A DNA stretch of 33,700 nt, taken from a virus. The number at the start of each line of letters is the position of its first letter. Position 1 is the stretch's first letter. The notes beneath the pieces were generated by a model that was not told where the DNA came from, made no database searches, and was given only the letters and a program-made list of their open reading frames with translations. The DNA is taken from the IMG/VR virus record IMGVR_UViG_3300030012_001970, positions 1 through 33,700 of that record. One strand, 5' to 3'. The position numbers were made by a program, and so were the translations under genes. Positions 11,411 through 33,665 of the stretch are shown here, in pieces.

Positions 11411-12574
11411 ATGAGTGAACAAATGCTTAATAATATCGCCAAGACGCTGAACGCCGCACCGGAAGTAGTGCAAGCAAGGGCTGATGAAGTCCTTGCCGAG
11501 CAGGGGGCTGCATGGAAAGCAGCCGGACGCTCAGACGAGGATTGTTTCATCCTCGCTCTAAGAGTCGCTGCCCGCAACATCACTTCAGAAAATTCACGCA
11601 TGAGGCGTGCTGGTGCTGATACATATGAGGGTATGTTCATATCCGTGCCAAGACCTAAAGAGTGGGGCAAGATTCTCTACAACAAGATGAAGAACCAACT
11701 CATCGGTGCATCCGATGAGGTCAAGAACACGCTGGTCAATGCTGGTTCTGTTGTCATCTTTGAGAACAACCACGACGGATCATACACAAGACTAGCACGG
11801 GAAGACTTCTTTGGTGCTGAAGAGGCAGATGTCTCCGCTCTACCAAAGCACACGATGGCCCTTGACTCCAACACTCACTTCTACGTAGTGTGGGACAAGA
11901 GCAACCCAACCTTCCCATCGGGTGACAGCAACTTCAAGTTCGGCGCACCACGACCACAGGATGAGAGGGAGAGAGTCATGGCCTTCTACGGTAGGAAACA
12001 GGGCGAGTCCGACCTAAGACTCATCACTGTTAGTGGAAGCGGAAAGGCTGCCGACAGGCAATACCCTACTTTCACGCCATTGAGCATCCCGCTCAAGTCG
12101 GCACGCAACCCCGACAGGGCTTACTTGAACGCTGATGTTTCCATCCCTACACCGGATGAGAACCTAGTGAACATCTTCCCCGGTTCACCCATTGATATGA
12201 TCGGTGATCTAATCGGTGCTGAGAACCTACTGAACGGTCTATCTGAGTTGGGCGCATACTACGACAAGTTCAACGGTCAAGACGGATGGTGGGACCGAAG
12301 CCTCGCTGTCAACACCGAGGTCATACACATAGACCCACGGGACAACGGTGGCTGCATCCTAGTATGCGGTGACATCGACCTAACCTCTATGGCTGGCACT
12401 GTAGATGTCTACTGCGATGAGGATGTCTCATTCGCCGTCGGCACAAAGGTCATGCTAGTCGGACAGGCATGGAGAAGCAGGGAAGGCGAAGACAGGCTAT
12501 CCGTCAACGGATGGTATGCCTTTGACGAGGTTGCCAGCGTCACCGAGTCTCTCACCGAGGGGTGGGATGCTTGA
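11411..12574 (+). CDS. RPA-like OB-fold single-strand DNA-binding protein
   Basis: This encodes 387 residues. After a helical N-terminus, TYEGMFISVPRPKEWGKILY starts a probable first OB fold that ends around LSIPLKSARN. The C-terminal region from about residue 300 (TEVIHIDPRDNGGCILVCGD, then VGTKVMLVGQAWRSREGED, then LSVNGWYAFDEV) reads like a second OB fold. Such proteins coat single strands during replication. It starts an operon with the GroES/GroEL pair. The assignment rests on beta-barrel patterning and context rather than on a diagnostic motif; another OB-fold role is possible. Confidence 0.6.
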   Translation: MSEQMLNNIAKTLNAAPEVVQARADEVLAEQGAAWKAAGRSDEDCFILALRVAARNITSENSRMRRAGADTYEGMFISVPRPKEWGKILYNKMKNQLIGASDEVKNTLVNAGSVVIFENNHDGSYTRLAREDFFGAEEADVSALPKHTMALDSNTHFYVVWDKSNPTFPSGDSNFKFGAPRPQDERERVMAFYGRKQGESDLRLITVSGSGKAADRQYPTFTPLSIPLKSARNPDRAYLNADVSIPTPDENLVNIFPGSPIDMIGDLIGAENLLNGLSELGAYYDKFNGQDGWWDRSLAVNTEVIHIDPRDNGGCILVCGDIDLTSMAGTVDVYCDEDVSFAVGTKVMLVGQAWRSREGEDRLSVNGWYAFDEVASVTESLTEGWDA

Positions 12575-12846
12575 GGGCGTTGGGCGACTACGTTCTCCTT
12601 CGGGCAACCGACCAAACATTAGAGAACGGTCTTGTTCTTAAGACCGCCTTCGTGGTTGAAGATGTGGGGGAGACTGTTCCCGCAAGCATACAACTAAACT
12701 TGGGTGATGCTATCCTATACAATGAGGAAAAGGCTGTGCCTTTAGATCCTCACACTATCTGTGTGCATTACAAGGACTTGTATGCGATAGCCGTCGCAGA
12801 CATATATTACAATAACGATAATTCTTCTTATGGACTTGAGGCATGA
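12571..12846 (+). CDS. groES: GroES-like co-chaperonin
   Basis: GroES caps the GroEL ring and drives release of folded protein. The sequence RALGDYVLLRATD matches the family's N-terminal strand. NGLVLKT at about 17-23 is the mobile loop with its hydrophobic tripeptide, and LNLGDAILYNEE and KDLYAIAV match later family strands. I choose the TTG at 12571 (91 residues) because GAGGGG (12556-12561) lies 9 nt upstream and it overlaps the previous stop as TTGA; a GTG at 12562 is the alternative. The product is a little shorter than bacterial GroES (about 97), with a reduced roof loop, and ends in a short acidic tail. GroEL follows directly. Confidence 0.75.
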   Translation: MRALGDYVLLRATDQTLENGLVLKTAFVVEDVGETVPASIQLNLGDAILYNEEKAVPLDPHTICVHYKDLYAIAVADIYYNNDNSSYGLEA

Positions 12847-14378
12847 ACATGAGTATGTTGACAGGAACGGAAGCAAGGGGCAAGTTGCTCAAGGGTGTCA
12901 ACCTCGTCGCTGATGCGGTCAAGGGAACTCTTGGGCCACAGGCCCGCACTGTGATTCTACAGAATCCGTTGGGTGGCTACCCCGCCATCCTCAACGACGG
13001 TGTGACCATTGCCCGTGCTGTCACTGATCGTGATCCCTACGTGCAAATGGGTATAGACCTCATGAAGCAGGTTTCCGCCGAGGCGCAAGGCAACTCCGGT
13101 GACGGCACTACGAGTGCCACGATCATTGCCAAGACCCTTGCCAACGGCTCGCTATCGCTGATGGAGAAAGAGATCAGCCCGCAGATAATCCGTGACGCTT
13201 TGATTTCCTACACCGAACAGACGAGGGATTACCTTGAAAGTAAGGTGAACAAGGATTTCGATCTAGTTGATGTGGCAACCATAGCCGCAAACAACGATGA
13301 TGACTTGGGCCGATTGATCGCCAACGTCATGAAAGAAAACGGAGAGAGGGGAACAGTCACCATAGAGAAGTCGTTGAACGGCGAGACATATGTTGACTCG
13401 GCTGACGGCTTTGAGGTTTACGCTGGATATATGCACAAGGCCATGACAAACGCACCACGCAATATGTGTGAGTATGAAAACCCCTTGGTGTATGTGACAG
13501 GTAGAAAGATAAACACCTTCAATGATCTAGTGCCAGCACTTGAGATTAGCATAAAAGAAAGTCGGCCACTTGTCGTCTTCTGTGCCTCTCTCAACGGCAC
13601 TGTCTTACAAAACCTACTTGTCAACGTGATACAGGGCAAGGTTTCCTGTGCTATCGTGCAGGTTCCCGGTATGCCACATGAGCAACAGTCATGGTTGGAG
13701 GATATAGCCGCAGCCACAGGCACGAAGATGGATGCGGAGTTCAATAAACTTACGCTAAAACTAGATACTCTTGGCACTTGCAAGCGATCTTTCATTGGCG
13801 AGAGGAACACTGTTCTCGTTGACTGCGATGGTGACATAGAGGATTCCGTCTTCGCTCTCACTGAGTTGAGGGATGGCACTGACAATCAGTGGGACAAAGA
13901 GGCGTATCAGAACAGAATCACCCGACTGACCACGGGCATATCTACTATCTATGTAGGTGGTGTGACCGAGGTTGAGCAGATAGAGCGCAAGGAGCGCGTC
14001 GATGATGCTGTCAATGCGTGCAAGCACGCACTGTCTGATGGTGTCATCGCTGGTGGTGGGTCTGAGTTGTATCGGGCTGCTTCTAACCTAGATCAACACC
14101 CCAAGGACAAGGACGCTGAGATTCTCAACCTTTTCTCAACCGCACTTGCCGGACCTATTACTACGATAAAAGAAAATGCGGGTAGCGATTTGTTCCTCAA
14201 CGTGCTTGAGGGCGAAGAAGGTTCCTATCTCAACGGTATGACCGGGGCTACCGGCGACGCTTGGGAAGATGGGGTCATTGACCCTGTGAACGTAGTTATC
14301 AACAGCCTTGATGCCGCAGTTTCCGTAGCCGCACTGATTCTCATGACTGACGCAGCCATAATCGCTCCATCGGAGTAG
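12843..14378 (+). CDS. groEL: group I chaperonin GroEL
   Basis: This encodes 511 residues with clear GroEL signatures: TLGPQARTVILQ near 28-39, LNDGVTIARAV near 56-66, the ATP-site GDGTTSAT near 86-93, VDDAVNACKHALSDG and VIAGGGSEL near 386-410, and GVIDPVNV near 476. Catalytic Asp positions of the family (in DGVT, GDGTT, VDDA and IDP) are kept. The apical domain is diverged but aligns by eye. The usual C-terminal Gly-Gly-Met repeat is missing and the protein stops about 30 residues short of cellular GroEL. GAGG at 12838-12841 is better spaced for the ATG at 12849 than for 12843. Group I, not thermosome, is notable for an archaeal virus. Confidence 0.9.
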   Translation: MNMSMLTGTEARGKLLKGVNLVADAVKGTLGPQARTVILQNPLGGYPAILNDGVTIARAVTDRDPYVQMGIDLMKQVSAEAQGNSGDGTTSATIIAKTLANGSLSLMEKEISPQIIRDALISYTEQTRDYLESKVNKDFDLVDVATIAANNDDDLGRLIANVMKENGERGTVTIEKSLNGETYVDSADGFEVYAGYMHKAMTNAPRNMCEYENPLVYVTGRKINTFNDLVPALEISIKESRPLVVFCASLNGTVLQNLLVNVIQGKVSCAIVQVPGMPHEQQSWLEDIAAATGTKMDAEFNKLTLKLDTLGTCKRSFIGERNTVLVDCDGDIEDSVFALTELRDGTDNQWDKEAYQNRITRLTTGISTIYVGGVTEVEQIERKERVDDAVNACKHALSDGVIAGGGSELYRAASNLDQHPKDKDAEILNLFSTALAGPITTIKENAGSDLFLNVLEGEEGSYLNGMTGATGDAWEDGVIDPVNVVINSLDAAVSVAALILMTDAAIIAPSE

Positions 14379-21249: not shown

Positions 21250-21957
21250 ATGCTCTTGGTCGATGACCGGGAAAATCCCAAAGTGGTCAACAAACTGCTC
21301 ATGAGAATGGGTGCTAATAACGTAAAAGTATGTAGGATGGCATCAGCAGACTATCAGATAGGTAAGTGGGGCATCGAGGCCAAGGAGATAAATGACCTTT
21401 ACCGCTCTATCTTGGGAATAGGTAGGAATCGCACGATTGTAGCGCAGTTGCGAGACTTGCAAGAGAACTACGAGAACCCTGTGCTGCTCGTCTATGGCAC
21501 AAAACTCAAGCCTTGGGTGCAAGGCAGCAGAAGGCCGTCAGCCAAGCAGATTGCTATGGAGATGGCCCGGATGAAGAAGGTCATAAATCAGTTCAAGATC
21601 ACGTTCTACCAGCGATTTCCCAAGATAAAATACATGGAGGTCGTCAGCATGGATGACTTCGTAGAGTGGTTGGTCGTCAACCATACACAGGACGGTATGG
21701 CTCTCAGCAATCATCACCCGGATGTCATACACTCCGTCAAGAAGTTTGACATGGACCCACGCATCGCTGCACTGTCCACTGTTCAAGGTGTCACGCCCGC
21801 TACAGCCGAGAAACTCTTGCAGAAGTTCGGTAGTTTGCCCGGAATACTACGTTCACGGACCACACAGAAATCTTTGATGGAGATCGACGGTATAGGTAGG
21901 AAGCGTGCCAAAGACATCCTAGCCCTACGCAATATCTACGAGAACGTAGAGAACTGA
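21250..21957 (+). CDS. XPF/ERCC4-family nuclease with HhH domain
   Basis: This encodes 235 residues. The ERCC4 nuclease core is seen as LLVDDREN (residues 2-9), SADYQIGKWGIEAKEINDLY near 34-53 and R-x-IVAQLRDLQENY. The canonical E-R-K-x-x-x-D is replaced by E-A-K-E-I-N-D, keeping Glu, Lys and Asp. The C-terminal 60 residues hold two helix-hairpin-helix units (VQGVTPATAEKLLQKFGSL and IDGIGRKRAKDIL). No helicase domain is attached, as in short archaeal XPF. It probably cuts branched or forked DNA. It ends inside the convergent tail-tip gene on the other strand. Confidence 0.85.
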   Translation: MLLVDDRENPKVVNKLLMRMGANNVKVCRMASADYQIGKWGIEAKEINDLYRSILGIGRNRTIVAQLRDLQENYENPVLLVYGTKLKPWVQGSRRPSAKQIAMEMARMKKVINQFKITFYQRFPKIKYMEVVSMDDFVEWLVVNHTQDGMALSNHHPDVIHSVKKFDMDPRIAALSTVQGVTPATAEKLLQKFGSLPGILRSRTTQKSLMEIDGIGRKRAKDILALRNIYENVEN

Positions 21958-24900
21958 GTAGCGGTGGACCTACCGGGAATAGAGGCTCTATTCATTCTTA
22001 CGTCTAAATTATGTAGTGTTATAGATGAGGTGTTGGCATCGTCGTTGCCTATTCCGGGCTTCCTCACTATACGAACACTTACTCTATTCTTAGGTGTTTT
22101 TATCCCCGATAGGCTAGTCAAAGGAAGTAGATCCACAGTTTTTTGTTGTGTGTTGCTAGATATAGTCACTGTATTGGTGACAGATGTTCCTGTGTTTTCT
22201 ATTGTGGCTGTTATCTCTAACACACCTTTGCTCTTTACAGCACCGGCCCCACAACTTACTTTAGCCGTAATAATTAAATCATCGTTGACCACATCTTCCG
22301 GCGTTGTGAATTGTGTTTCAAGACTTACTCTTTGGCTTGTTGCTACGGCATCTGCCGTGCCTACTAGACCCTTAGCACCAAAGACGTAGCCATCGGCTGT
22401 GAGGGCGGCAGAACCGCCGGTTGCGATGATAGACACATCGCTACCTTCGATACCGCGCATGGCAGTCATCATACTACCCTCGTTTCGCATACCCAAGATA
22501 GAGAAGTTGCTGTTTCCTAGATCATTCATGTCCATTCTGCCTATATATCTATTGAATGTAGTGCTTGACTGTTGATTTATTGTCAATTCTGTTTCGCCAT
22601 ATCCGTTTCCATCCGGGTCTAACGTGCCTCCCACGGGCAGATCCGGTGTGAAATCTGAACCGGGTGGGTTGCTAGGTGGACTTGGTTGACCTCCCGGTGG
22701 ATAGGGGCTGTTATGTTCAGAACCCATGCCACTACTTATGCCTGTGTTGCCTATTGCGTGTCCTGTGCCATCAGACCCGTATACGTGGGATAAGAAACCA
22801 CCTAAGCGTATAGATTCGTCCCGTTCTAACTTCAAAGTGACTTCATCTGTTTTGCCAGCCGTGACATTCCAATTTACTTCTTTTACCACTAAACTTGTTG
22901 CCGTGTTCAAACCTAAACCGGGATCTGTGACAGACACTATTGAGGCCGGATGATATTTCATATCTTTACATATCTGCACACGGGGAGCATACCAAACTGC
23001 CCTATCATCTGCAAAACCACCTTGGAAATCATGCGCTCTCTTACCGAGCGGGAAGATACTATTGACATTTACCGAGCCACTACCATTGTCAACGCTGCTG
23101 TCTAGGATATAGTTAGATGCAGTATGATCTGTTTGTGACGGGTTGCCGCACCTGTGTCTGAGAAGCGCACGGCAGTATTCTGCGTTGAATGATACGATAA
23201 TTTTTCCGCCAGCAGAACTGTCATAACTTGAAGGAACAGGTATTTCGTAGAAACCACTGTGTTTGACATTTATAGTTTCACTACCGTTTGCTGTTCCCGG
23301 TATTCTTCTGTTTCCTGTAAAGTCATAATCAGCAAGTGTTATGGTGAATTCTGCCTCATCAATACTTGTTCCATTTTGATTTTTCAGATCAATCCATATA
23401 CGCATAGAATTACCGTTAGAATTTACCAAAGGCATATTTTCGGTCACATGAACCACTTGTAAGGCATATGATATAGAATTAGACCCATACCATGTGTAGT
23501 TGTCGTTGTAGGCTATAGTCGTTGGGTTGTTGTCAACCTTAGAAATACCGTATCTTGCATATATGTCTGTCGTGGTCTTCAGATTACCGTCAAGAGCGTT
23601 GACCATGCCGGGGAAGAGAACACCACCTGTTCCCAATCTTGTCCAATTTGTGACGAATTTGTTGGCATTTGTCACTGTTTGTAATTTAGACTGCAATGCT
23701 ACGTATGAATCTGAAATATATCCGTATCTACCTTGATCTATCATTTTGTTGTTTATTGATTGTTCTAATATAGGGTTGATAGTAAGTTGCATAGGAGCGT
23801 TTTGGTTTTTATTGTATTCTTGCTTTGCTATCTGTAGAGCCTCGACACTGTTTCTTATGCTTGGCATCTCTACTATTCTCCACCTAGTAGTATCGGACAA
23901 AGCAGGTTTGGGGTGATCTATGAAGGACGCACCATTATTGTAATATACCCTTACATGAGAGATTTGAGAGGTCATTTGCGACGTAAAATTGGCTACTTTT
24001 ATGTTTTGTCTTGTAAATGACAAGTGCGAATTAAATTTTGGTCTAAATTCAATTCTGCCATCACGTCCTACTAGGTAAGAAAATGTTGTTTTTAGGCTAT
24101 TCAATTCTCCAAACCCACTTTTCTGTCTCATCGCGTTGAGTATGGAGGCTAACGTCTTACCTTTTGTCTCTAAAATAGAGCCATAACTGTCATTTGACGT
24201 GGTATCGCTATATGTCGTCATTATGCTAGTGTTAGGCACGTTGTTTATGTCATATATAGCGGTCAAACGGGTAGGTGGTAGCCAACTGTCTGTGATGGCC
24301 GCATTCCATAGAGTCCTTACTTTGTCGCTTTCGTAGAATGTGCCACTGTTTTTACTCTTTATGCGACCATTCATGTGCATAAGTAATCTTAACATAAAGA
24401 CAGCACCGAAAGAAGAATGAACTTCGACGGATTTAGCGTCAGATGGGCCTATCAAACCAAAATTAGTCCAACTTGTCTCTAATGCGTTGTATTTTTCTTG
24501 TATGGCTTCCGAAAAACCCTCGTTAGAAGTCCTTGCCAAGTTGATTTCCTCGTCCGTTAGAGATGTCATGAACACTTTACCTAACTGTGGAGGTATGGTA
24601 AATGTATCATTTGTCGCAAAACTACTGCCCGATACCACTAATTTAGTGTTTGAATTGCTGTCATCTACCTCTCCCACGTTTAGAATATTGTGTCTACTTG
24701 TTTCTGTGCCTCCCGCGTTAGTCCTTTCAAGTATCATTCCTTCTTTTACACCGTCAGCAGGGAAAGTAGCACCGCTTACAGTAATTACTTGTGTAGTAGC
24801 GATTCCTCCGTATGATCCTCCCGATGATGGCGACGAAGATACGGTATAAACACCCGAAGACGGCAATTGTGTATCTGTTTTGTTTTCGTAGGAAAAGTAA

Positions 24901-27900
24901 AAATCCTGCATATTAGGCTCATTATTGCTTCTGCTGACGATAGCACGAACAAACCCATACCCTTGATCGTCAAAGATAGTGGGGTCGTCTATAGGCAGAC
25001 CTGTATATGAATTTTCCAAGAATACACCATCGCTGTCTATGTCTGTCACTAATGTAGCCTTACCTTGCAGGTGCTTGGCATTGGGGTGTGTCAAAGCCCT
25101 AGTATCTGTTGTTAGATATGACGGTGTGGCTTCATACCAATAATTGTCTATCAGCATCGGAAATCCTTCGTTTGTGGCTACGTAGTCGCCTAGATTAGTT
25201 CTAAGTCCTGCTATTTGACCTATTTTACCATCATTTATGTGAGTGTTTAGGTTGAAGAAGGGAGATGTGTCTATGACTACAAAAGCACCTGCTTTGTCTT
25301 CCCAATCTTGATATTGCGTTAGATCCAAATCGCTACCTGTGGTTGGATAAACTACAGCCGAACTGAGAACTTGATATGTGCTTGCTGTGTGTGTTGTAGA
25401 GGTGGTCAATACAGTGCTTGTTTTGCCCGTAATCGTGTGTATGCCATCGTGAGCCGTTGAGCCAACCAAATGAACAAAGTCAACACCGCTTGGGAACTTG
25501 TTGGTCATATCGCTGCTACTTATTGTTATCGTTAATTTACCGCTTGATTCTCCCAAAGTAGCACTGACGGGATTTGCGTAATCAACAGGTTTGGAGAAAG
25601 CACCGCCTGTTATCGGATCTGATGTAGAATCTATGTTCCAAACACTGATGTCATCACCGTTTTTTAGGCTGGCGAATTTGTCCAAGTTGCCATCTGCGTT
25701 TCTTTGCTCGGCATAGAATAGATCGAAATTGTAATTGTCACTTATTGGGTATTGTAGCCCAAAATCTTGCTTTCTGTCTAAAGCATCTGCGTTTGCCCTG
25801 CTATTGTTTCTCATATCCGACCATAACAGCCAAATATGTTTGTAATCGTTGCTTATGCTTCTAACTTTTATTTTGTCCCTGTTGGCAGAAGAAACATAGT
25901 CAAACATATATTTAACACCCACAAGATAATATTCTGATGAACCGTTGTCCTTTTTACCTTGGTAGATGAATTTACCTAAGAAGTTTCCGTCCCTGTATAT
26001 TTCAGCAATTCCGTATTGTGGCAAACCTGCATAAGAACTCGCAGGAACTCTAAATGACGTAGATGAGGGAGTGTAAGTTATTCCGTGATTGACACCTTGT
26101 TGTGCTATGGTGTTTGCGGGATCGAATTGTATTCTACCGAAGTGATATTGGAACCACAACGATTGAGGTAAGTCACGCATCCAACGAGCGTGCAAAACCC
26201 TTTCGGGGAACTCGGTCACGTTTGTTATGATACCTGTGTCTTTCGACCATTCTACTCTATCGTTGCCTGTTTTCAAAGCGTCTGTATTTGCTGCGCTGCT
26301 TTGACAATACACACCATAATCGCTTGTAGCGTCTTTTGCTGTGTATGTCTTAACCCAATATAATATGTTAAAATTATTATGTGTGTTGTTGAAGTAAGAC
26401 CTTGTTTGTTTTATCTGCTTGACCTTGTGCCTACCCTTGTAGATTGCTCCTGTGTAGTTAGCGTTGCCTATTGTTCTACTATTAACGTAAAATTCATCAT
26501 TGATACTCAAGCCGGGATCAGCGTCAAATATAATATTGACTTCATGTGGTTGATCGTTGACATCGAGAATATCACTTGGATGAGGCTTATTACCCTCTTT
26601 AGTTCTCCAAAGTATGTCATTTTTATTACTATACTCGTTAGGGTCATAGAACGGACCCCAAGCCTTACCCATGTAGATAATCTTTGCAGTTTCTCCTGTG
26701 ACAGCCAACGTGCCACCAGCGACAGTTATGACGTTGCCCGATACAGAAGAAGAGGCATATGTTCCATTGTGGTTGGCTGAGTTTGTTATGGTGATGTTTA
26801 CGGGGTGAGTCAAACCGTGGTCGCTACGAGACAGGTGTATCTGTGTGTTTCCGCTTGTGTCCTCGTTAAAACCCAATATACCTAGCCCCTCATGAAAATC
26901 CTCTATATTATTGGGGCCATGTGTGTCTTCGTTGTTATACATCTGTATGGGGTGTCCCGATCCCAACTGCGTCCTTTGCGTGGATGTCTCAAGATACCCA
27001 CTGTCTTTGTCAAAACCTAAGTCCGGGCCTAGCAGTTTCAATTCTCTCGATCCTAAATTCATTGTGTTCTTAAATCCTTGTGCCTCATAAAGCCAATAAT
27101 CAGTTTCAGCCTCATTGTCATTCAATGATTCTTGACCCACTTCCCACAAAGGCACTGTGCGATCCATGATACTAAGGGCATCGCTGGCTTGGAATGTAAG
27201 TATTCTATCTCTCCTTTTTTCTTTTATGCTAAAATTATCTACTATGCCTCTCCATAATGGCCTGTCTATTCTGGGAGAATCTTCACCAAAGATCAATAAC
27301 TGCCAATCAAGGGCGGAAGTAGCCACAAAAAGATCCTTTATGTTGTGTTGATAGTTGGCAGCATTGCTACCTCTTAGATTGTCTGAGTGTAAAGCCGGTA
27401 TGTCCGATACATCTATAGAACAAGAAGATATACCATTGACTGCCCTACTCATATTCAATTTTGTGATAGGAGCATCATCGTTGTCTCCTGTCACATTGTC
27501 TGTTAGGTATCTCACTAAACCTACTCTATCAAACATAGTGTAAGATACATATCCTTCGGTAGATCCTGTCTCAGCATTGACTATGCTTATTTGGTAGCCA
27601 TAAAGATTAGCGGCTGTAGGTGAGCCTACCATAGAAGCGTTTTCTTTTATTCTAGTGCCGTTTACATATATGTCATACTCACCAGCCGAGTAATCCATAA
27701 CAAAGTCTATGTCAATCCAAGTATCGTCATTTGTGTAGGACTGTTCAGTTCCCGAACTATCATACAATTCTCCGGCTGTGTCATAGGTCACATTCATACC
27801 TCCGGTTGTGTAGTTGAGAGGTATAACCGCGTTTATGGCCGCATTACTAGTTCCAAAGCCTGTGTCGGTCAAATCAGTCGTTGGTTGGGGAAAACCTATC

Positions 27901-28730
27901 TCAAACCTCAACCCTATCTTAGTCCAATCACCAACTTGTTTATGTCCTCTTACAGCCATTCTAGCCGTGAATACATCGCCATCAAGTCTTGTGTTAAGTG
28001 GACCATCATATATCAACACCGGAACTGTAGGATTGTTGGCTTTGTCGTAGCGGGCAGACTGAACAACCAAGAAGGGTTTTTTAGCGGGAGAAGTGACCTC
28101 GGCAAACAATCTATGTGGTGTGTTGTCTGTAGAGTCTTCTTTGAGTGCCTCTCCCATCCACACGCCCGTCAAGTGACCTCTTTGCACGAAGTTCCCACTT
28201 GTATCTTTCACACCAGCATCGTCGGTGGTGTCGTAAGAGGCGGCATTATAGCCCTGCATAGTGGCTCTACCAAAGGTAGCGTCGTTAGTGCCTGTGGGAA
28301 CAACGTAAGAACCCAAGGTATCGTAGCCGTTCACGAACTTGAGATAGCCGTCACCCACAGCCCCACCGAACCTGTATCTGTTGGCTACGTGACCGTCTGG
28401 GTATTGCAACTGCGCCCTGCCTTCCCACTCATCGTTGCTTTGTCTTGTGTCGTCGTGCGAGATAAACTCAAACAAACCATCGTTCTTCAATAGTTTTTGG
28501 GCATCGGGCGCATACTCGTTGCCCCCTGTATGGTCCCTATCGGGTTGCGCCCATCGGTATCGGGGGTTGAGCGTGGCCTCCCCGTTCATGGGGTTGCCGT
28601 GATGAGAATTTGTATGATCCCTGTCTGTGCCGGGACTGTTCTTGTCATCGGGAATGGCTCTCGCCCCGTTGAAATCATCGTAGTAGCCAGCCAGCCACAC
28701 TTGATACTTCTTGTTGACAGTCCTTACCAT
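21936..28730 (-). CDS. giant tail-tip / tail hub and receptor-binding protein
   Basis: This encodes 2264 residues, with AGGTGA 4 nt before the ATG on this strand. Domains in order: a beta-rich N-terminus; a LamG/ConA-like domain at about 240-390 (WIDIDFVMDYSAGEYDIYVN); a hub-like segment near 430-545 (LWRGIVDNFSIKEKRRDRIL); three similar small beta modules near 650, 1095 and 1340; a second hub-like part near 1550-1670 (VGRDGRIEFRPKF; ISHVRVYYNNG); a Pro/Gly-rich linker near 2010-2030; and a C-terminal beta region of about 230 residues. Position right after the tape measure fits a tail-tip or baseplate protein, with the tail end likely binding the host. The function of each domain is inferred. 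Confidence 0.75.
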   Translation of the reverse strand: MVRTVNKKYQVWLAGYYDDFNGARAIPDDKNSPGTDRDHTNSHHGNPMNGEATLNPRYRWAQPDRDHTGGNEYAPDAQKLLKNDGLFEFISHDDTRQSNDEWEGRAQLQYPDGHVANRYRFGGAVGDGYLKFVNGYDTLGSYVVPTGTNDATFGRATMQGYNAASYDTTDDAGVKDTSGNFVQRGHLTGVWMGEALKEDSTDNTPHRLFAEVTSPAKKPFLVVQSARYDKANNPTVPVLIYDGPLNTRLDGDVFTARMAVRGHKQVGDWTKIGLRFEIGFPQPTTDLTDTGFGTSNAAINAVIPLNYTTGGMNVTYDTAGELYDSSGTEQSYTNDDTWIDIDFVMDYSAGEYDIYVNGTRIKENASMVGSPTAANLYGYQISIVNAETGSTEGYVSYTMFDRVGLVRYLTDNVTGDNDDAPITKLNMSRAVNGISSCSIDVSDIPALHSDNLRGSNAANYQHNIKDLFVATSALDWQLLIFGEDSPRIDRPLWRGIVDNFSIKEKRRDRILTFQASDALSIMDRTVPLWEVGQESLNDNEAETDYWLYEAQGFKNTMNLGSRELKLLGPDLGFDKDSGYLETSTQRTQLGSGHPIQMYNNEDTHGPNNIEDFHEGLGILGFNEDTSGNTQIHLSRSDHGLTHPVNITITNSANHNGTYASSSVSGNVITVAGGTLAVTGETAKIIYMGKAWGPFYDPNEYSNKNDILWRTKEGNKPHPSDILDVNDQPHEVNIIFDADPGLSINDEFYVNSRTIGNANYTGAIYKGRHKVKQIKQTRSYFNNTHNNFNILYWVKTYTAKDATSDYGVYCQSSAANTDALKTGNDRVEWSKDTGIITNVTEFPERVLHARWMRDLPQSLWFQYHFGRIQFDPANTIAQQGVNHGITYTPSSTSFRVPASSYAGLPQYGIAEIYRDGNFLGKFIYQGKKDNGSSEYYLVGVKYMFDYVSSANRDKIKVRSISNDYKHIWLLWSDMRNNSRANADALDRKQDFGLQYPISDNYNFDLFYAEQRNADGNLDKFASLKNGDDISVWNIDSTSDPITGGAFSKPVDYANPVSATLGESSGKLTITISSSDMTNKFPSGVDFVHLVGSTAHDGIHTITGKTSTVLTTSTTHTASTYQVLSSAVVYPTTGSDLDLTQYQDWEDKAGAFVVIDTSPFFNLNTHINDGKIGQIAGLRTNLGDYVATNEGFPMLIDNYWYEATPSYLTTDTRALTHPNAKHLQGKATLVTDIDSDGVFLENSYTGLPIDDPTIFDDQGYGFVRAIVSRSNNEPNMQDFYFSYENKTDTQLPSSGVYTVSSSPSSGGSYGGIATTQVITVSGATFPADGVKEGMILERTNAGGTETSRHNILNVGEVDDSNSNTKLVVSGSSFATNDTFTIPPQLGKVFMTSLTDEEINLARTSNEGFSEAIQEKYNALETSWTNFGLIGPSDAKSVEVHSSFGAVFMLRLLMHMNGRIKSKNSGTFYESDKVRTLWNAAITDSWLPPTRLTAIYDINNVPNTSIMTTYSDTTSNDSYGSILETKGKTLASILNAMRQKSGFGELNSLKTTFSYLVGRDGRIEFRPKFNSHLSFTRQNIKVANFTSQMTSQISHVRVYYNNGASFIDHPKPALSDTTRWRIVEMPSIRNSVEALQIAKQEYNKNQNAPMQLTINPILEQSINNKMIDQGRYGYISDSYVALQSKLQTVTNANKFVTNWTRLGTGGVLFPGMVNALDGNLKTTTDIYARYGISKVDNNPTTIAYNDNYTWYGSNSISYALQVVHVTENMPLVNSNGNSMRIWIDLKNQNGTSIDEAEFTITLADYDFTGNRRIPGTANGSETINVKHSGFYEIPVPSSYDSSAGGKIIVSFNAEYCRALLRHRCGNPSQTDHTASNYILDSSVDNGSGSVNVNSIFPLGKRAHDFQGGFADDRAVWYAPRVQICKDMKYHPASIVSVTDPGLGLNTATSLVVKEVNWNVTAGKTDEVTLKLERDESIRLGGFLSHVYGSDGTGHAIGNTGISSGMGSEHNSPYPPGGQPSPPSNPPGSDFTPDLPVGGTLDPDGNGYGETELTINQQSSTTFNRYIGRMDMNDLGNSNFSILGMRNEGSMMTAMRGIEGSDVSIIATGGSAALTADGYVFGAKGLVGTADAVATSQRVSLETQFTTPEDVVNDDLIITAKVSCGAGAVKSKGVLEITATIENTGTSVTNTVTISSNTQQKTVDLLPLTSLSGIKTPKNRVSVRIVRKPGIGNDDANTSSITLHNLDVRMNRASIPGRSTATQFSTFS

Positions 28731-28738
28731 TCACTCAC

Positions 28739-31726
28739 CTAAATCGCAACGGAATTATTACCAAATACGAGTCTTCCTCTACCCTCTATCTCTTCGACAA
28801 TGACATCAACCATTTCCGGTATTGTCAATCCGTTAAACACATTTGTCATGACTACCTCAGTGTTTGTTATCAATGTCTCTACCCCTTGCTGTTGCACCTG
28901 CCTTATCAAGTCACCTGTCATATTGGATCTTGACCCAAAGAAAAGTTCCTCCCTCGCATTTGCAAATTCACCTATAGTGTCCTTTACTTGCGTCACATCA
29001 TTTACGAAACCATTGGCATCCATACCAGCATTCGCAAAGGTGTTTCCGGTGGCCTCTACTATTGTGTTGAAATCGTCCATAGTCGTTATACCATGTCTCT
29101 CTATAAACTCAAATACTTCGGGGAACTCCTTAGCAAAAGATTTTAACTCAACTTCAGTTTGAGCAAAACCAAGACCTACATTTACTAAACCATCTTTCAT
29201 TCTTCTGAAATGTTGTTGGTAAGTTATGTCTAAGGGGTTTAGTTTTTTAGGGTCGCCATACTTGTCAAGTAATTTTTCTTCTTTCTCCAAAGCATCAAAG
29301 AAGTTTGACAATGCGCCTTGATCAACACCTTCCATAGCGGCCTGTGCCGAAAGTATGTCGTTTGTTCTAACTAAATTAGCCAAACGCTGTTCTTCTGCGG
29401 AAAGAACGTCTGATAGCATACCACTGTTTGACTTTCTCAACGATTCTACCTTTTGTTTTTGTAGTTCCAATGATTCGGTTAGGTTCAGTGTTCCGTTGTT
29501 GACCTCGCCTATCATGTCAGCGACTTCGCCCATATCAGCGATAGCATTTGTCGTAGTTTCGGCTTGTTCTTCTGCATCCTTACCAAATATATTGAAATCC
29601 TTAAAAGCCTTAGTGATTAACGTAGCGGCTGCGCCTAATGCTAAAAGCGGTGCAATTGTAGTCATCAAAGCGGCTGCCTTGACCCTAAGACCTGTCATAG
29701 CATGGCCCAATGTTGTAGTTGCCACTGTTTGCGCTCCTAATGATGCTGTGTGTGCTTGACCCGCTTTGACTAAATTTCCATACATATTTTGCATATCAAA
29801 CATCTTGAAAATTTGGACTCCCATAGCAGCAGTATTCAGTGCCAAACCCGCTTTTACCACAGATTGATTTTTACTGAAAAGCATCATTGCTGAACCTGCT
29901 CCCATCAAACCACCTGTTAAAGCGTTTAGTGACTGCGCTTGTTCTCTAGCCTTTCGCATGGCCTCATCTTCTAATTTACCCTTCATTCTAGTGTGTTGAA
30001 GGTTGTTTAAGTGAGTGAATTGTTTTTCTAATTCAGCGTTTACTTCCATGAGTTCTATATGCAACTCTTTATATGCGTCGGAACTTAAGTTTACGGCATT
30101 CATATCCTTAAATATTCCTTGTCTTTTCTTTTCTAAATCTACGATGGCCTTTTCGGTTGCTCTTTCACCGAATTGGTTTATCATGTTCAAACCTTCTTGG
30201 GACAATTTCTGCATCTCCAAGACTTGATTTATAGCACCTATTTCTGCTACTTGTTGTTGATTTAGATTACTACCTATACCCATCAATCTATTTCTTTGTT
30301 CCAATGGACTGTTCAATGCACGTAAGATGGCTTGATGGGTTTGCATAGAAATACTAAGGCTTTTTATTCCTATAACTGTTGATATTAGTGGTCCTACGAG
30401 ACTTGTTGTGGCCTTTGCAAAGGAGAACATCGCTAAAGCGGCATCACCTAAAAGTGGTATTTCGGTAAATCCTAAGAAAGCCTCTATCATCATCGCTTGT
30501 TTGTTTGTGGTTTCGGTCATGGCAGGTAAGAGTTTGTCACCTAACGCAGCAGAAAGGTTTCTTACCTTAGCCTCGGCTTGCTCAAGTTGGAAAAGTTCTG
30601 ATTCTCTTCTTCTTTCAATCTCTTCCATTGCGGGGAACATAGCCAACGTAGCCTCTAGTTCCAACGCCTTGACACGATCAAGGTTGTTCATTATTTTGAG
30701 GAAACGTGTGTAATGCCTGTTTCCGGCTATTATCTGCGCTACTTCTTGTTTTCTAGCACCATCCATTTCTTGAAATTGTGGTTCTAATTCTTTTAGTATG
30801 TCAGAAAGACCACGCATATCGCCATTTACGTCAGTCACAGCGATACCCAAGTTTTTGAGTTCAGTAGCAGCACCACCTATGTCAGAACCAAGACGCGCAT
30901 ACATCATACGCAAGGCACGACCACCCTTACCTTGTTCTTCACCTGTCTCAATCATAACGGCTGACATGGCAGCCATAGTTCTTATTTCCTCGTTAGCGAG
31001 GTGAGCCTGTGAAGCGAATTGGTTCATGACGAAGGTTATCTGCTCCATCGTAGCAGCCGAGCGGTTTTCAATCGTGTTCAGTTCGTCAAGAACACGCATA
31101 GCATTCTGTCTGATTTGTGTAGCCCTTTCTTGTTCTGAGGCATTTTCGGCAATACCATCAGTCATGAACTGCGTCTGTTGCTGAAGGTTAATCATACGCT
31201 GCATGGCAGCCTCAGTTTCCATACCGCTAATTAGACCAAATTCCATACCTATTTGTGTTCCCGTAGCCAAAGAACCGGGTCCGAGAACACCACTTATCTG
31301 CGCCATCTTAGCGGCTGCTTGCATCGCTTGATCGCCAGCAAAGGCAAAGTTTTCACCTATACCTTCTATATCTTCCCTTACTTGACTAATATCTTCAGAT
31401 GTATCTAGGAACTTCTCTAATTGTATTTCTGCTTCGGCAAGTTCCCTTGCTACAGGAACAACAGCATCAGTCACAGTGTTGAATATCTCTCCCAATTCCA
31501 TTGCTGATTCTTGTATACCTGTCAAAGCATCCAAGTAAAGCGACTCAAAGACAGTGGCGGCTGACTTTGAATCATCAATCATCTTTGCCGCTTGGAATGT
31601 TCCAACGATGTCGAAGAAAACCCTTGATGCACCAGCACGAAGAACAAGGAGACAGATGGCTGCTGTAAACAGTGCGACAGGGGAAAGATACCCTAATAGT
31701 AAACTACTTCCCAACGCCTCTATCAT
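28739..31726 (-). CDS. tail tape-measure protein
   Basis: This encodes 995 residues. The N-terminus has a hydrophobic stretch (residues about 10-30, LGYLSPVALFTAAICLLVLR). A long helical region follows with TP901-style repeats (AMQAAAKMAQISGVLGPGSL; LANEEIRTMAAMSAVMIETG; GKGGRALRMMYARLGSD; LKNLGIAVTDVNGDMRGL), typical of the phage tape-measure core, then coiled-coil-like and Ala-rich hydrophobic segments. Tape-measure length sets tail length; at about 1.5 angstrom per residue this predicts a tail near 150 nm. It lies between the tail chaperones (ATGA overlap) and the tail-tip gene, the standard order. Confidence 0.88.
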   Translation of the reverse strand: MIEALGSSLLLGYLSPVALFTAAICLLVLRAGASRVFFDIVGTFQAAKMIDDSKSAATVFESLYLDALTGIQESAMELGEIFNTVTDAVVPVARELAEAEIQLEKFLDTSEDISQVREDIEGIGENFAFAGDQAMQAAAKMAQISGVLGPGSLATGTQIGMEFGLISGMETEAAMQRMINLQQQTQFMTDGIAENASEQERATQIRQNAMRVLDELNTIENRSAATMEQITFVMNQFASQAHLANEEIRTMAAMSAVMIETGEEQGKGGRALRMMYARLGSDIGGAATELKNLGIAVTDVNGDMRGLSDILKELEPQFQEMDGARKQEVAQIIAGNRHYTRFLKIMNNLDRVKALELEATLAMFPAMEEIERRRESELFQLEQAEAKVRNLSAALGDKLLPAMTETTNKQAMMIEAFLGFTEIPLLGDAALAMFSFAKATTSLVGPLISTVIGIKSLSISMQTHQAILRALNSPLEQRNRLMGIGSNLNQQQVAEIGAINQVLEMQKLSQEGLNMINQFGERATEKAIVDLEKKRQGIFKDMNAVNLSSDAYKELHIELMEVNAELEKQFTHLNNLQHTRMKGKLEDEAMRKAREQAQSLNALTGGLMGAGSAMMLFSKNQSVVKAGLALNTAAMGVQIFKMFDMQNMYGNLVKAGQAHTASLGAQTVATTTLGHAMTGLRVKAAALMTTIAPLLALGAAATLITKAFKDFNIFGKDAEEQAETTTNAIADMGEVADMIGEVNNGTLNLTESLELQKQKVESLRKSNSGMLSDVLSAEEQRLANLVRTNDILSAQAAMEGVDQGALSNFFDALEKEEKLLDKYGDPKKLNPLDITYQQHFRRMKDGLVNVGLGFAQTEVELKSFAKEFPEVFEFIERHGITTMDDFNTIVEATGNTFANAGMDANGFVNDVTQVKDTIGEFANAREELFFGSRSNMTGDLIRQVQQQGVETLITNTEVVMTNVFNGLTIPEMVDVIVEEIEGRGRLVFGNNSVAI

Positions 31727-32025
31727 TCAGAACCCTCACTTCGCTTACCCTCAACCGGCACACCGCTTTCGCTCAATATGTCGAGTAGATCCATATTGTT
31801 TGATAAGAGTTTGCGTTCTGCACGCCTTTGATCCCTTCGGGCTACCGCACCCTTGGCATCTCTCTTCTTAGCATCAGTAGTAGCCTCGCTGATCTTGTCG
31901 TTTATCTCGGCGGCTATCACCAAGTCCATGTCCATTAGGTGACGGCCACCCTGCACGGAATACTTGAGCCAAAGTTCAGAAGGAAGTGTCCCTTTAAAGG
32001 CCATGCAAAGGCTCGGTGCGACCAT
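31723..32025 (-). CDS. tail assembly chaperone, downstream (T-like) frame
   Basis: This encodes 100 residues from the ATG at 32025, ending by ATGA-type overlap with the tape-measure gene. No ribosome binding site precedes the ATG. The first residues (MVAPSLCMAFKGTLPSELW) read as the interior of a domain, and the rest is helical and basic. By position and by the slippery CCCTTTT just upstream, this is the T-like part of a G/GT chaperone pair, normally made as a -1 frameshift fusion with the upstream frame (about 217 residues). Separate translation by TAATG coupling is the alternative. Confidence 0.65.
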   Translation of the reverse strand: MVAPSLCMAFKGTLPSELWLKYSVQGGRHLMDMDLVIAAEINDKISEATTDAKKRDAKGAVARRDQRRAERKLLSNNMDLLDILSESGVPVEGKRSEGSE

Positions 32026-32375
32026 TAGGAATTCTGAAAAGGGACCGCGCCATCCTCATCGTCACCACGCACGAATTGAAGTATCTTGTTAAGTTCCTCA
32101 AACGTCAGCATATTGACATCGACATCCTCATCTAAAATACAGGCTGGAACCCATGTTTCCATCTGTGCCTCTATGCCACCGCCCATATCATCTACCATCA
32201 AAGCAAACTCTTCGTTTTGTTCTTCAGTCCACTTTGTAGGGTCGCCAGCGTGCCGCATCTTGCGAAAGGCTTTACCTTGAATGTTGGTTATCTTCAACTT
32301 CTCCATACCGGAGGCTTGTCTAACCCAAATCTTTCGTCCGTCGTCTAACTCTATCTCTTTCTTCATTACCGGCAT
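32025..32375 (-). CDS. tail assembly chaperone, upstream (G-like) frame
   Basis: This encodes 116 residues starting MPVMKKEIELDDGRKIWVRQ, a beta-rich N-terminus followed by helices (MEKLKITNIQGKAFRKM; EEQNEEFALMVDDMGGG) and LTFEELNKILQFVRGDDED. This is the usual layout of small tail chaperones that sit between tail tube and tape measure. Its last codons include the slippery run described separately, and its stop TAA overlaps the next ATG. It would guide tape-measure folding during tail assembly. Confidence 0.65.
   Translation of the reverse strand: MPVMKKEIELDDGRKIWVRQASGMEKLKITNIQGKAFRKMRHAGDPTKWTEEQNEEFALMVDDMGGGIEAQMETWVPACILDEDVDVNMLTFEELNKILQFVRGDDEDGAVPFQNS
32037..32043 (-). other. predicted -1 programmed frameshift site CCCTTTT
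   Basis: On the minus strand the 3' end of the upstream chaperone frame reads GTC CCT TTT CAG AAT TCC TAA. The run C-CCT-TTT fits the X-XXY-YYZ slippery pattern in the zero frame. A -1 slip continues as TCA GAA TTC CTA ATG GTC GCA, exactly the frame of the downstream chaperone ORF, and passes the zero-frame stop. This matches the conserved tail G/GT arrangement. Confidence 0.65.
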
Positions 32376-32441: not shown

Positions 32442-32624
32442 TTATTCTTCTTCAACCTTTACCTTCTTGGCTGGTGCTTTCTTCTTAGGGGCGGGCTTGG
32501 CTACTTTGACGGGGTATCTTCGACATATAACCATAACTTGCTTCTTACTAAGACCTTCCATACTCTCAAGGTCTTCCTCCGGTATGTCAAGACCAAGGGA
32601 TTCTGCTAGTTCTCGACCTTCCAT
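32442..32624 (-). CDS. 60-residue protein with Lys/Ala/Pro-rich tail
   Basis: The N-terminal 38 residues are acidic and helical (LAESLGLDIPEEDLESMEG, then LSKKQVMVICRRYP). The C-terminus is KPAPKKKAPAKKVKVEEE, a histone-tail-like Lys/Pro run. AGGTG lies 5 nt before the ATG. It sits between the tail tube and the tail chaperones, so it may be a small tail-completion or assembly protein. No family is recognised. Confidence 0.6.
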   Translation of the reverse strand: MEGRELAESLGLDIPEEDLESMEGLSKKQVMVICRRYPVKVAKPAPKKKAPAKKVKVEEE

Positions 32625-32633
32625 CTAAACACC

Positions 32634-33665
32634 TCAGAAAGCATTCGTTCCTAGTGCGCCACCTTTTCCTTGTATTCTCATGGCTTTGTCTGCTCCGCTT
32701 GCTGTTGCGTCATAGAGAGCAACGAAACCAACGGACATTGTGTTGGTGTCCCTGCCGCTTACGGATGCTTCGGGGGCTTCAAACCTTACGTTGTATAGAT
32801 AAATTTTAATGTATTCTGAATCATCGTCGGCCTCACTTTGCAAGTCAAGTGTGATTGTCGGGTCTGCTGCCGCATCGCTAGTAATCAAACCATCTGCCGA
32901 AACTAAATCACCAAAGAGAGGTTCATCGACACTTGTAGAGTAAATAACTTTGTTAAACTCAATGGTCCCACTGATCTCCCTGCGCTGTGCTGGTGGCGCA
33001 CGACTGTAGGTGCTGTTTCCTATACCGTAAGCGTTGTCTGTATCGCGGTTTAGGTTTACATCAAGAGAGAATGACTTTACGCTTGCCGAGGCTGCTGGTG
33101 CGCCGCTAGTCCCTTCATCAAACTTGACGTGACCGTTGGCGAAGTAAAGAGCGTCGAGGGCATCTCCATTAAAGGTAGGCGTAGCCAAAGCAGCAGGGGC
33201 TTCTTCCCTACATCCAACAAAGGAAGCACTTAACATGACATACTCCCCTACGGTTGCGGTAATGTTCATGGAGTTTGCGACCATGCCCGTGAAGGTGTGT
33301 TCTTTCTCTTCCCTACCTACTCGTATAGTGTAGGAGTGATAAGCGTCACCTGCTACTGTAGGCTCGTCAAATGTGTGACCGCCGGTTAAAGTTGAGTCGT
33401 AATCAGTCTTGGGGAAGAATGCACCAAACAGTGTTCCTGCGAAGTCATCCACTTGTAGGGCTAGGTTTATGTCACCCTCGGATCTCTCCAATCCGGTCAC
33501 GGACTTTGAGGAAATCGGTCTGCTCATGTCTTGCCTTGTCATCAAGTCATACGTTGTTGCGAGAGACTCATCATCGACCTCTCCGTAAATTGGAGTGCCT
33601 GACGGCTCAGTGCCGTAGGTTGTTTCTTTCTCTATTGATACATATCTGTTTAGGAACTCTACCAT
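32634..33665 (-). CDS. major tail tube protein
   Basis: This encodes 343 residues, with GAGGTG 5 nt before the ATG on this strand. It opens EFLNRYVSIEKETTYGTEPS, typical of phage tail tube proteins, and continues with beta strands and the features GDINLALQVDDFAGTLFGAF, FTGMVANSMNITATVGEYVM and VKSFSLDVNLNRDTDNAYG. Gene order (tail tube, chaperone frames, tape measure, tip) supports it. It should polymerise into the tail tube. The length, above 300, suggests an added beta domain in the second half. Confidence 0.75.
   Translation of the reverse strand: MVEFLNRYVSIEKETTYGTEPSGTPIYGEVDDESLATTYDLMTRQDMSRPISSKSVTGLERSEGDINLALQVDDFAGTLFGAFFPKTDYDSTLTGGHTFDEPTVAGDAYHSYTIRVGREEKEHTFTGMVANSMNITATVGEYVMLSASFVGCREEAPAALATPTFNGDALDALYFANGHVKFDEGTSGAPAASASVKSFSLDVNLNRDTDNAYGIGNSTYSRAPPAQRREISGTIEFNKVIYSTSVDEPLFGDLVSADGLITSDAAADPTITLDLQSEADDDSEYIKIYLYNVRFEAPEASVSGRDTNTMSVGFVALYDATASGADKAMRIQGKGGALGTNAF

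Follow-up and report, generated by a model that had tools for sequence, protein, structure and literature searches.

A predicted -1 ribosomal frameshift joining two tail assembly chaperone frames in a magrovirus-like virus

The tail module of the IMG/VR virus record IMGVR_UViG_3300030012_001970 raises the question of how two small overlapping open reading frames (ORFs), here called G and T, are expressed: as separate proteins or, through a change of frame, as a fusion. We analysed a 33,700-nt stretch of this record (the window, to whose whole length all positions refer), in which the tail module lies on the minus strand at the window end. ORF G (32025..32375, minus strand) encodes 116 residues and ends with the stop codon TAA at 32027-32025, whereas T, when taken as an ATG-started frame (31723..32025, minus strand), encodes 100 residues from the ATG at 32025-32023 to the TGA at 31725-31723. 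The pair is flanked by tail-tube and tape-measure genes, identified by Pfam and PHROG matches, and an ORF of at least 200 codons, the size of a tape measure gene, begins right after T in all 106 relatives with enough sequence. We conclude with high confidence that G and T represent G/GT tail assembly chaperones joined by a -1 programmed frameshift. This is the reading proposed in a preliminary description of the locus, and it is supported by the conservation and phase of the slip site, by protein-coding evolution of the -1 frame ahead of any start codon and by synteny.

The slippery heptamer and its conservation

The G frame crosses the junction as GTC CCT TTT CAG AAT TCC TAA and the -1 frame as CCC TTT TCA GAA TTC CTA ATG GTC. 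The heptamer CCCTTTT (32037..32043, minus strand) is read as C CCT TTT in G, with its final codon three codons ahead of the TAA, and the -1 frame is open from the heptamer (31723..32040, minus strand), extending for 104 codons beyond it. A slip of one base back would give a fusion of 113 + 104 = 217 residues. Re-reading of the sequence (heptamer at 32043..32037) confirmed the heptamer, its phase, its distance to the stop and the fusion of about 217 residues given in the preliminary description. In-phase heptamers of the X XXY YYZ type (Y=A/T) are infrequent in the coding frames listed for the window, with 13 per 9,334 codon positions (0.14% per codon), and about 0.014 of them would be expected in the 10-codon overlap of both frames; CCCTTTN is found in phase nowhere else in these frames.

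Viral contigs were scanned three times, with G or with G alignments, which yielded 151 junction-complete loci, including the window, of which 117 are distinct, a few contigs present twice under two locus numbers having been removed from the distinct count. Across this set, identity to G of the window falls to about 46%. Towards the end of G, a canonical X_XXY_YYZ heptamer that is in phase and leads by -1 into T is present in the window and, in total, at 106 of the 117 distinct sites (CCCTTTG, 76; CCCTTTT, 16; CCCTTTA, 14). The other 11 differ in the first base, and two of these also carry CAT in place of CCT, giving the forms N CCT TTT and N CAT TTT. In every one of the 117 distinct sequences, the -1 frame continues past the heptamer for 80 codons or more, or until the contig ends, and it is kept while the zero-frame stop floats, being found 0, 3, 6, 9, 12, 15 or 27 nt downstream. 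Conservation in the 117 distinct sequences excludes a chance origin of this putative slip site.

To examine the constraint on the site, 113 distinct complete sequences were aligned by codons (FastTree length 23.7). The slip-site Pro codon is CCT in 111 of 111 sequences, with zero third-base changes, whereas each of 18 other fourfold columns has undergone 12 to 43 such changes. The codon that follows is always TTN, and Leu at this position is TTR in 89 of 89 cases, an all-TTR share matched at just one of 14 other Leu columns. Furthermore, the codon preceding Pro ends with C in 103 of 113 sequences, GTC and ATC making up 12-13% of Val and Ile codons. The codons flanking the heptamer vary freely. 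On the evidence of these substitution patterns, the constraint on the heptamer is the signature of a requirement at the nucleotide level. The preliminary description had proposed comparing related loci for a heptamer kept in phase amid drifting flanking codons, and this is the pattern seen in the 151 loci. In no relative is the slippery run missing, the second frame in +1 or the second ORF preceded by a recognisable ribosome binding site of its own.

Access to the T frame

Of the 117 distinct sequences, 84 lack an ATG in the first 5 codons after the heptamer, and in 25 neither ATG nor GTG nor TTG occurs for 15 codons or more. In the stretch that runs from the zero-frame stop to the earliest possible start, changes number 76, 47 and 190 at the first, second and third codon positions of the -1 frame, respectively (chi-square p about 1e-24). 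The start-free stretch evolves as protein and is therefore reached from upstream, by a change of frame. In the viruses without such starts, judging from their sequences, the second frame cannot be accounted for by a start of its own. In the AlphaFold2 (AF2) model of the -1 part of the window protein, with a mean predicted local distance difference test score (pLDDT) of 79.7, the first 50 residues average at least 88 per ten-residue block, and the first helix comprises residues 2-14 (numbered with the slip-site Phe as reference), thus beginning upstream of the ATG. As for the ATG itself, the preliminary description had noted that it lacks a ribosome binding site, and duplex energies near the shuffled background agree: the mean Shine-Dalgarno duplex energy of 22 junction ATGs is -1.6 kcal/mol versus -1.2 kcal/mol for shuffled sequences, which is not above background, while the corresponding values for the G start are -6.2 and -4.7 kcal/mol.

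As to the mechanism, we infer that most archaeal ribosomes would translate G and stop, whereas a minority would slip one base back at C_CCU_UUU to produce the 217-residue GT fusion. The tRNA-Pro would re-pair from CCU to CCC and the tRNA-Phe from UUU to UUU; in relatives, a tRNA-Leu would re-pair from UUG or UUA to UUU. Should the parallel with lambda hold, coating of the tape measure protein would fall to the G part and recruitment of tail-tube subunits to the T part, and the slip rate would set the G:GT ratio.

The clade to which the window belongs requires separate consideration. All sequences with T as the last heptamer base form one clade, with 24 distinct complete members including the window. 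Variation in the first heptamer base is confined to this clade, with 9 changes in 3.3 tree units as against 0 in the remaining 20.4 (Fisher test on the change counts, uncorrected for relatedness, p 1.5e-8); the loci concerned are L020, L047, L017-L019, L021-L024 and L050. The clade is also characterized by an ATG at the G stop, found in 21 of the 24 members, the window among them, and rare outside. In the window this overlap is TAATG (32023..32027, minus strand), formed by the G stop and the in-frame ATG of T, and it permits stop-start re-initiation. In two loci, L020 (A CAT TTT) and L047 (A CCT TTT), the first base has drifted and the junction is without an ATG; this suggests a slip that depends mainly on the second codon.

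Could re-initiation alone account for T? Ribosomes ending G would then resume at TAATG, T would be a separate protein and the heptamer would be incidental. The TAATG- or TGATG-type overlap in most members of the window's clade fits such coupling, as does the coincidence that this is the clade in which the first heptamer base drifts. However, coupling leaves unexplained why the CCT codon shows no synonymous change whatever, it offers no route into T in viruses with no nearby ATG or no possible start for 15 codons or more, in which the stretch is yet kept as a -1 protein, and L020 and L047 speak against it; we consider it very improbable as the sole explanation. Re-initiation might instead operate alongside the frameshift in the window's clade, the slip yielding GT and the TAATG some free T, whereas most other clades would make the fusion only. 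The window indeed combines a canonical heptamer with a stop-start overlap typical of its clade and rare elsewhere, and such a dual arrangement is compatible with the G/GT frameshift. Nevertheless, the ATG of the window has no Shine-Dalgarno sequence, the T model begins its first helix ahead of it, and its Met may be a neutral residue of the fusion, all of which make the dual arrangement unlikely in our view. The frameshift of the preliminary description stands, but in the window's clade TAATG also leaves room for a separate T made by re-initiation, in addition to the fusion.

The frames could also be joined at the RNA level, by transcriptional slippage producing mRNAs one base shorter or longer. 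The site is T-rich, which fits this reading, but the run comprises just 3-4 T, and the three-T forms CCCTTTG and CCCTTTA account for 90 of the 117 distinct sites. Moreover, both the CC of CCT and the C ahead of it are under selection too, as tRNA re-pairing would predict, and we regard transcriptional slippage as extremely improbable. A +1 shift was rejected, the +1 frame being closed near the junction in most relatives.

Several observations weigh against the G/GT frameshift itself. The 11 variants in the window's clade lack C as the first base, and two of them have CAT for the Pro codon. No conserved downstream stem or pseudoknot was found (mean z between -0.9 and 0.0; energy of the consensus fold -2.0 kcal/mol; z +0.54 for the window), and upstream Shine-Dalgarno-like sequence is barely above synonymous shuffles (-8.2 versus -7.7), so no stimulator was identified. 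The fold matches of G are weak: for its AF2 model (pLDDT 94.9), both aligners rank the HK97 tail assembly chaperone 2ob9 first in the PDB, with E 0.16 in Foldseek and, in VIA, Z 4.9 and a root-mean-square deviation of 4.2 over 81 residues. Finally, the assignment to an archaeal host is indirect. Two candidate stimulators were discarded. GGTGA/GAGG-type stretches lie about 5-25 nt upstream of the heptamer and are mostly due to conserved R-G-D and D/E-G residues. A perfect 8-bp inverted repeat pairs GTCCCTTT (32045..32038), at the slippery site, with AAAGGGAC (31995..31988), in the downstream FKG codons. Its pair counts are slightly higher than in shuffles, covariation is weak and conserved codons dictate most of the pairs; we do not call this stem functional, also because it would be melted while the ribosome occupies the slip site.

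In the window's clade, the type of slip may have changed. Once the second codon was UUU, the first base would have become free, even in A_CAU_UUU with no junction start, suggesting that a slide of the A-site tRNA-Phe on U_UUU suffices on archaeal ribosomes and that P-site re-pairing is dispensable, the stop-start overlap arising alongside. We put this forward only tentatively, as a possibility about which we retain considerable doubt. The clade nevertheless has the appearance of a natural experiment on relaxation of the slip site, and the site family C_CCU_UUG/A/U, together with its drifted forms, provides a natural mutant series for the slip rules of archaeal ribosomes.

Known frameshifts, protein matches and virus assignment

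The arrangement resembles the G/GT genes of lambda, which exemplify the conserved tail-gene frameshift of dsDNA phages (Xu, Hendrix and Duda 2004): two small overlapping ORFs lie between the major tail protein and the tape measure, and the fusion carries a C-terminal T domain. It differs in the site (C_CCU_UUN versus G_GGA_AAG in lambda), in having no sequence family match and in the predicted archaeal host. Among viruses of archaea, -1 G/GT shifts have already been proposed for the haloarchaeal siphoviruses HVTV-1 and HCTV-1/2/5 (PMC5009743, PMC8211752), of which HVTV-1 and HCTV-5 belong to Druskaviridae. They share with the window the gene order, the -1 direction and, given the predicted host of the window virus, an archaeal host; the HVTV-1 and HCTV-5 records annotate G-T as joined coding sequences, and we read GGGAAAG at their site. 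Their proteins differ from those of the window in length, and tblastn gave no match between them and G or T of the window, nor between G or T and the named phage genomes. In the halovirus Hardycor1, a G/GT frameshift was predicted at G GGA AAT (PMC7911831), and in the HF1 group, a +1 shift (PMC7911831, PMC7230728). In these archaeal viruses, too, the chaperone pair ahead of the tape measure gene is predicted to be frameshifted, although the predictions come from one to a few genomes and involve another site or direction. Furthermore, -1 shifting has been shown in Saccharolobus fucA1 (PMC8211752). Consequently, a confirmed case here would not be the first extension of the arrangement to archaeal ribosomes, as the preliminary description had suggested. 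A G/GT frameshift in archaeal viruses had been proposed before, and what is different is the site family C_CCU_UUN and the unusually strong comparative support.

In the literature searched, we found no report of this frameshift for magroviruses, the sole co-mention being a cobalt chelatase reference, and a search for the heptamer returned no archaeal or phage paper. The same heptamer, C_CCU_UUU, is the slippery site of West Nile virus NS1'. The NS1' frameshift is among the most efficient known (PMC11507841), but it occurs in an unrelated RNA virus on eukaryotic ribosomes and has a downstream RNA structure, whereas none was found here. With 151 loci versus a handful of haloviral predictions, the present set appears to be a far denser comparative case for -1 frameshifting on archaeal ribosomes than we found in the literature, and its setting is viruses that probably infect uncultured, very abundant marine archaea.

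Neither G nor T has a usable Pfam or PHROG match, and G has no sequence match in the PDB. Nevertheless, BFVD matches of the G model include many viral proteins named tail assembly chaperone, and position and fold together make it likely, although not proven, that G is such a chaperone. A fold search with T retrieved just one unnamed viral protein of 85 residues and noise. This protein, BFVD A0A516MCV4, is 47% identical to the T part and stands as a separate entry, suggesting that public annotation cuts T off as a short gene. The present analysis corrects this annotation: most of these viruses do not have T as a gene of its own.

The best reading of the virus, although indirect, is a magrovirus-like tailed virus of Poseidoniales. 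Among named records, the window PolB is closest to those of HCTV-5 (25% identity) and HVTV-1 (24%). Pfam finds PolB, an RFC-like AAA ATPase, Cpn60 and an ERCC4 nuclease in the window, whereas putative PCNA, MCM and GroES frames, picked by eye, have no Pfam match. PolB, the RFC-like ATPase, Cpn60, the ERCC4 nuclease and two opposed gene clusters agree with the published description of Aoguangviridae of Magrovirales, in which an RFC small subunit, GroEL and an annotated tail assembly chaperone also figure (PMC10768690). Neither the G alignment nor PolB, when used to scan genome contigs, detected a relative, and no host link was obtained. At 12562..14378, a GroES-like small ORF is followed by the Cpn60 gene (PF00118, E 3e-49), as described for Aoguangviridae.

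Within the tail module, all on the minus strand, the tail tube protein (32634..33665; Pfam Phage_tube_2, E 9e-23) lies upstream of the G/T pair, and a 60-codon Lys/Ala/Pro-rich ORF (32442..32624) is located between the tail tube and chaperone genes. The tape measure protein (28739..31726) matches PhageMin_Tail (E 2e-17) and PHROG tape measure families, and its start overlaps the T stop (ATGA). Directly downstream of it, a 2264-codon ORF (21936..28730) probably encodes a tail tip or fibre protein.

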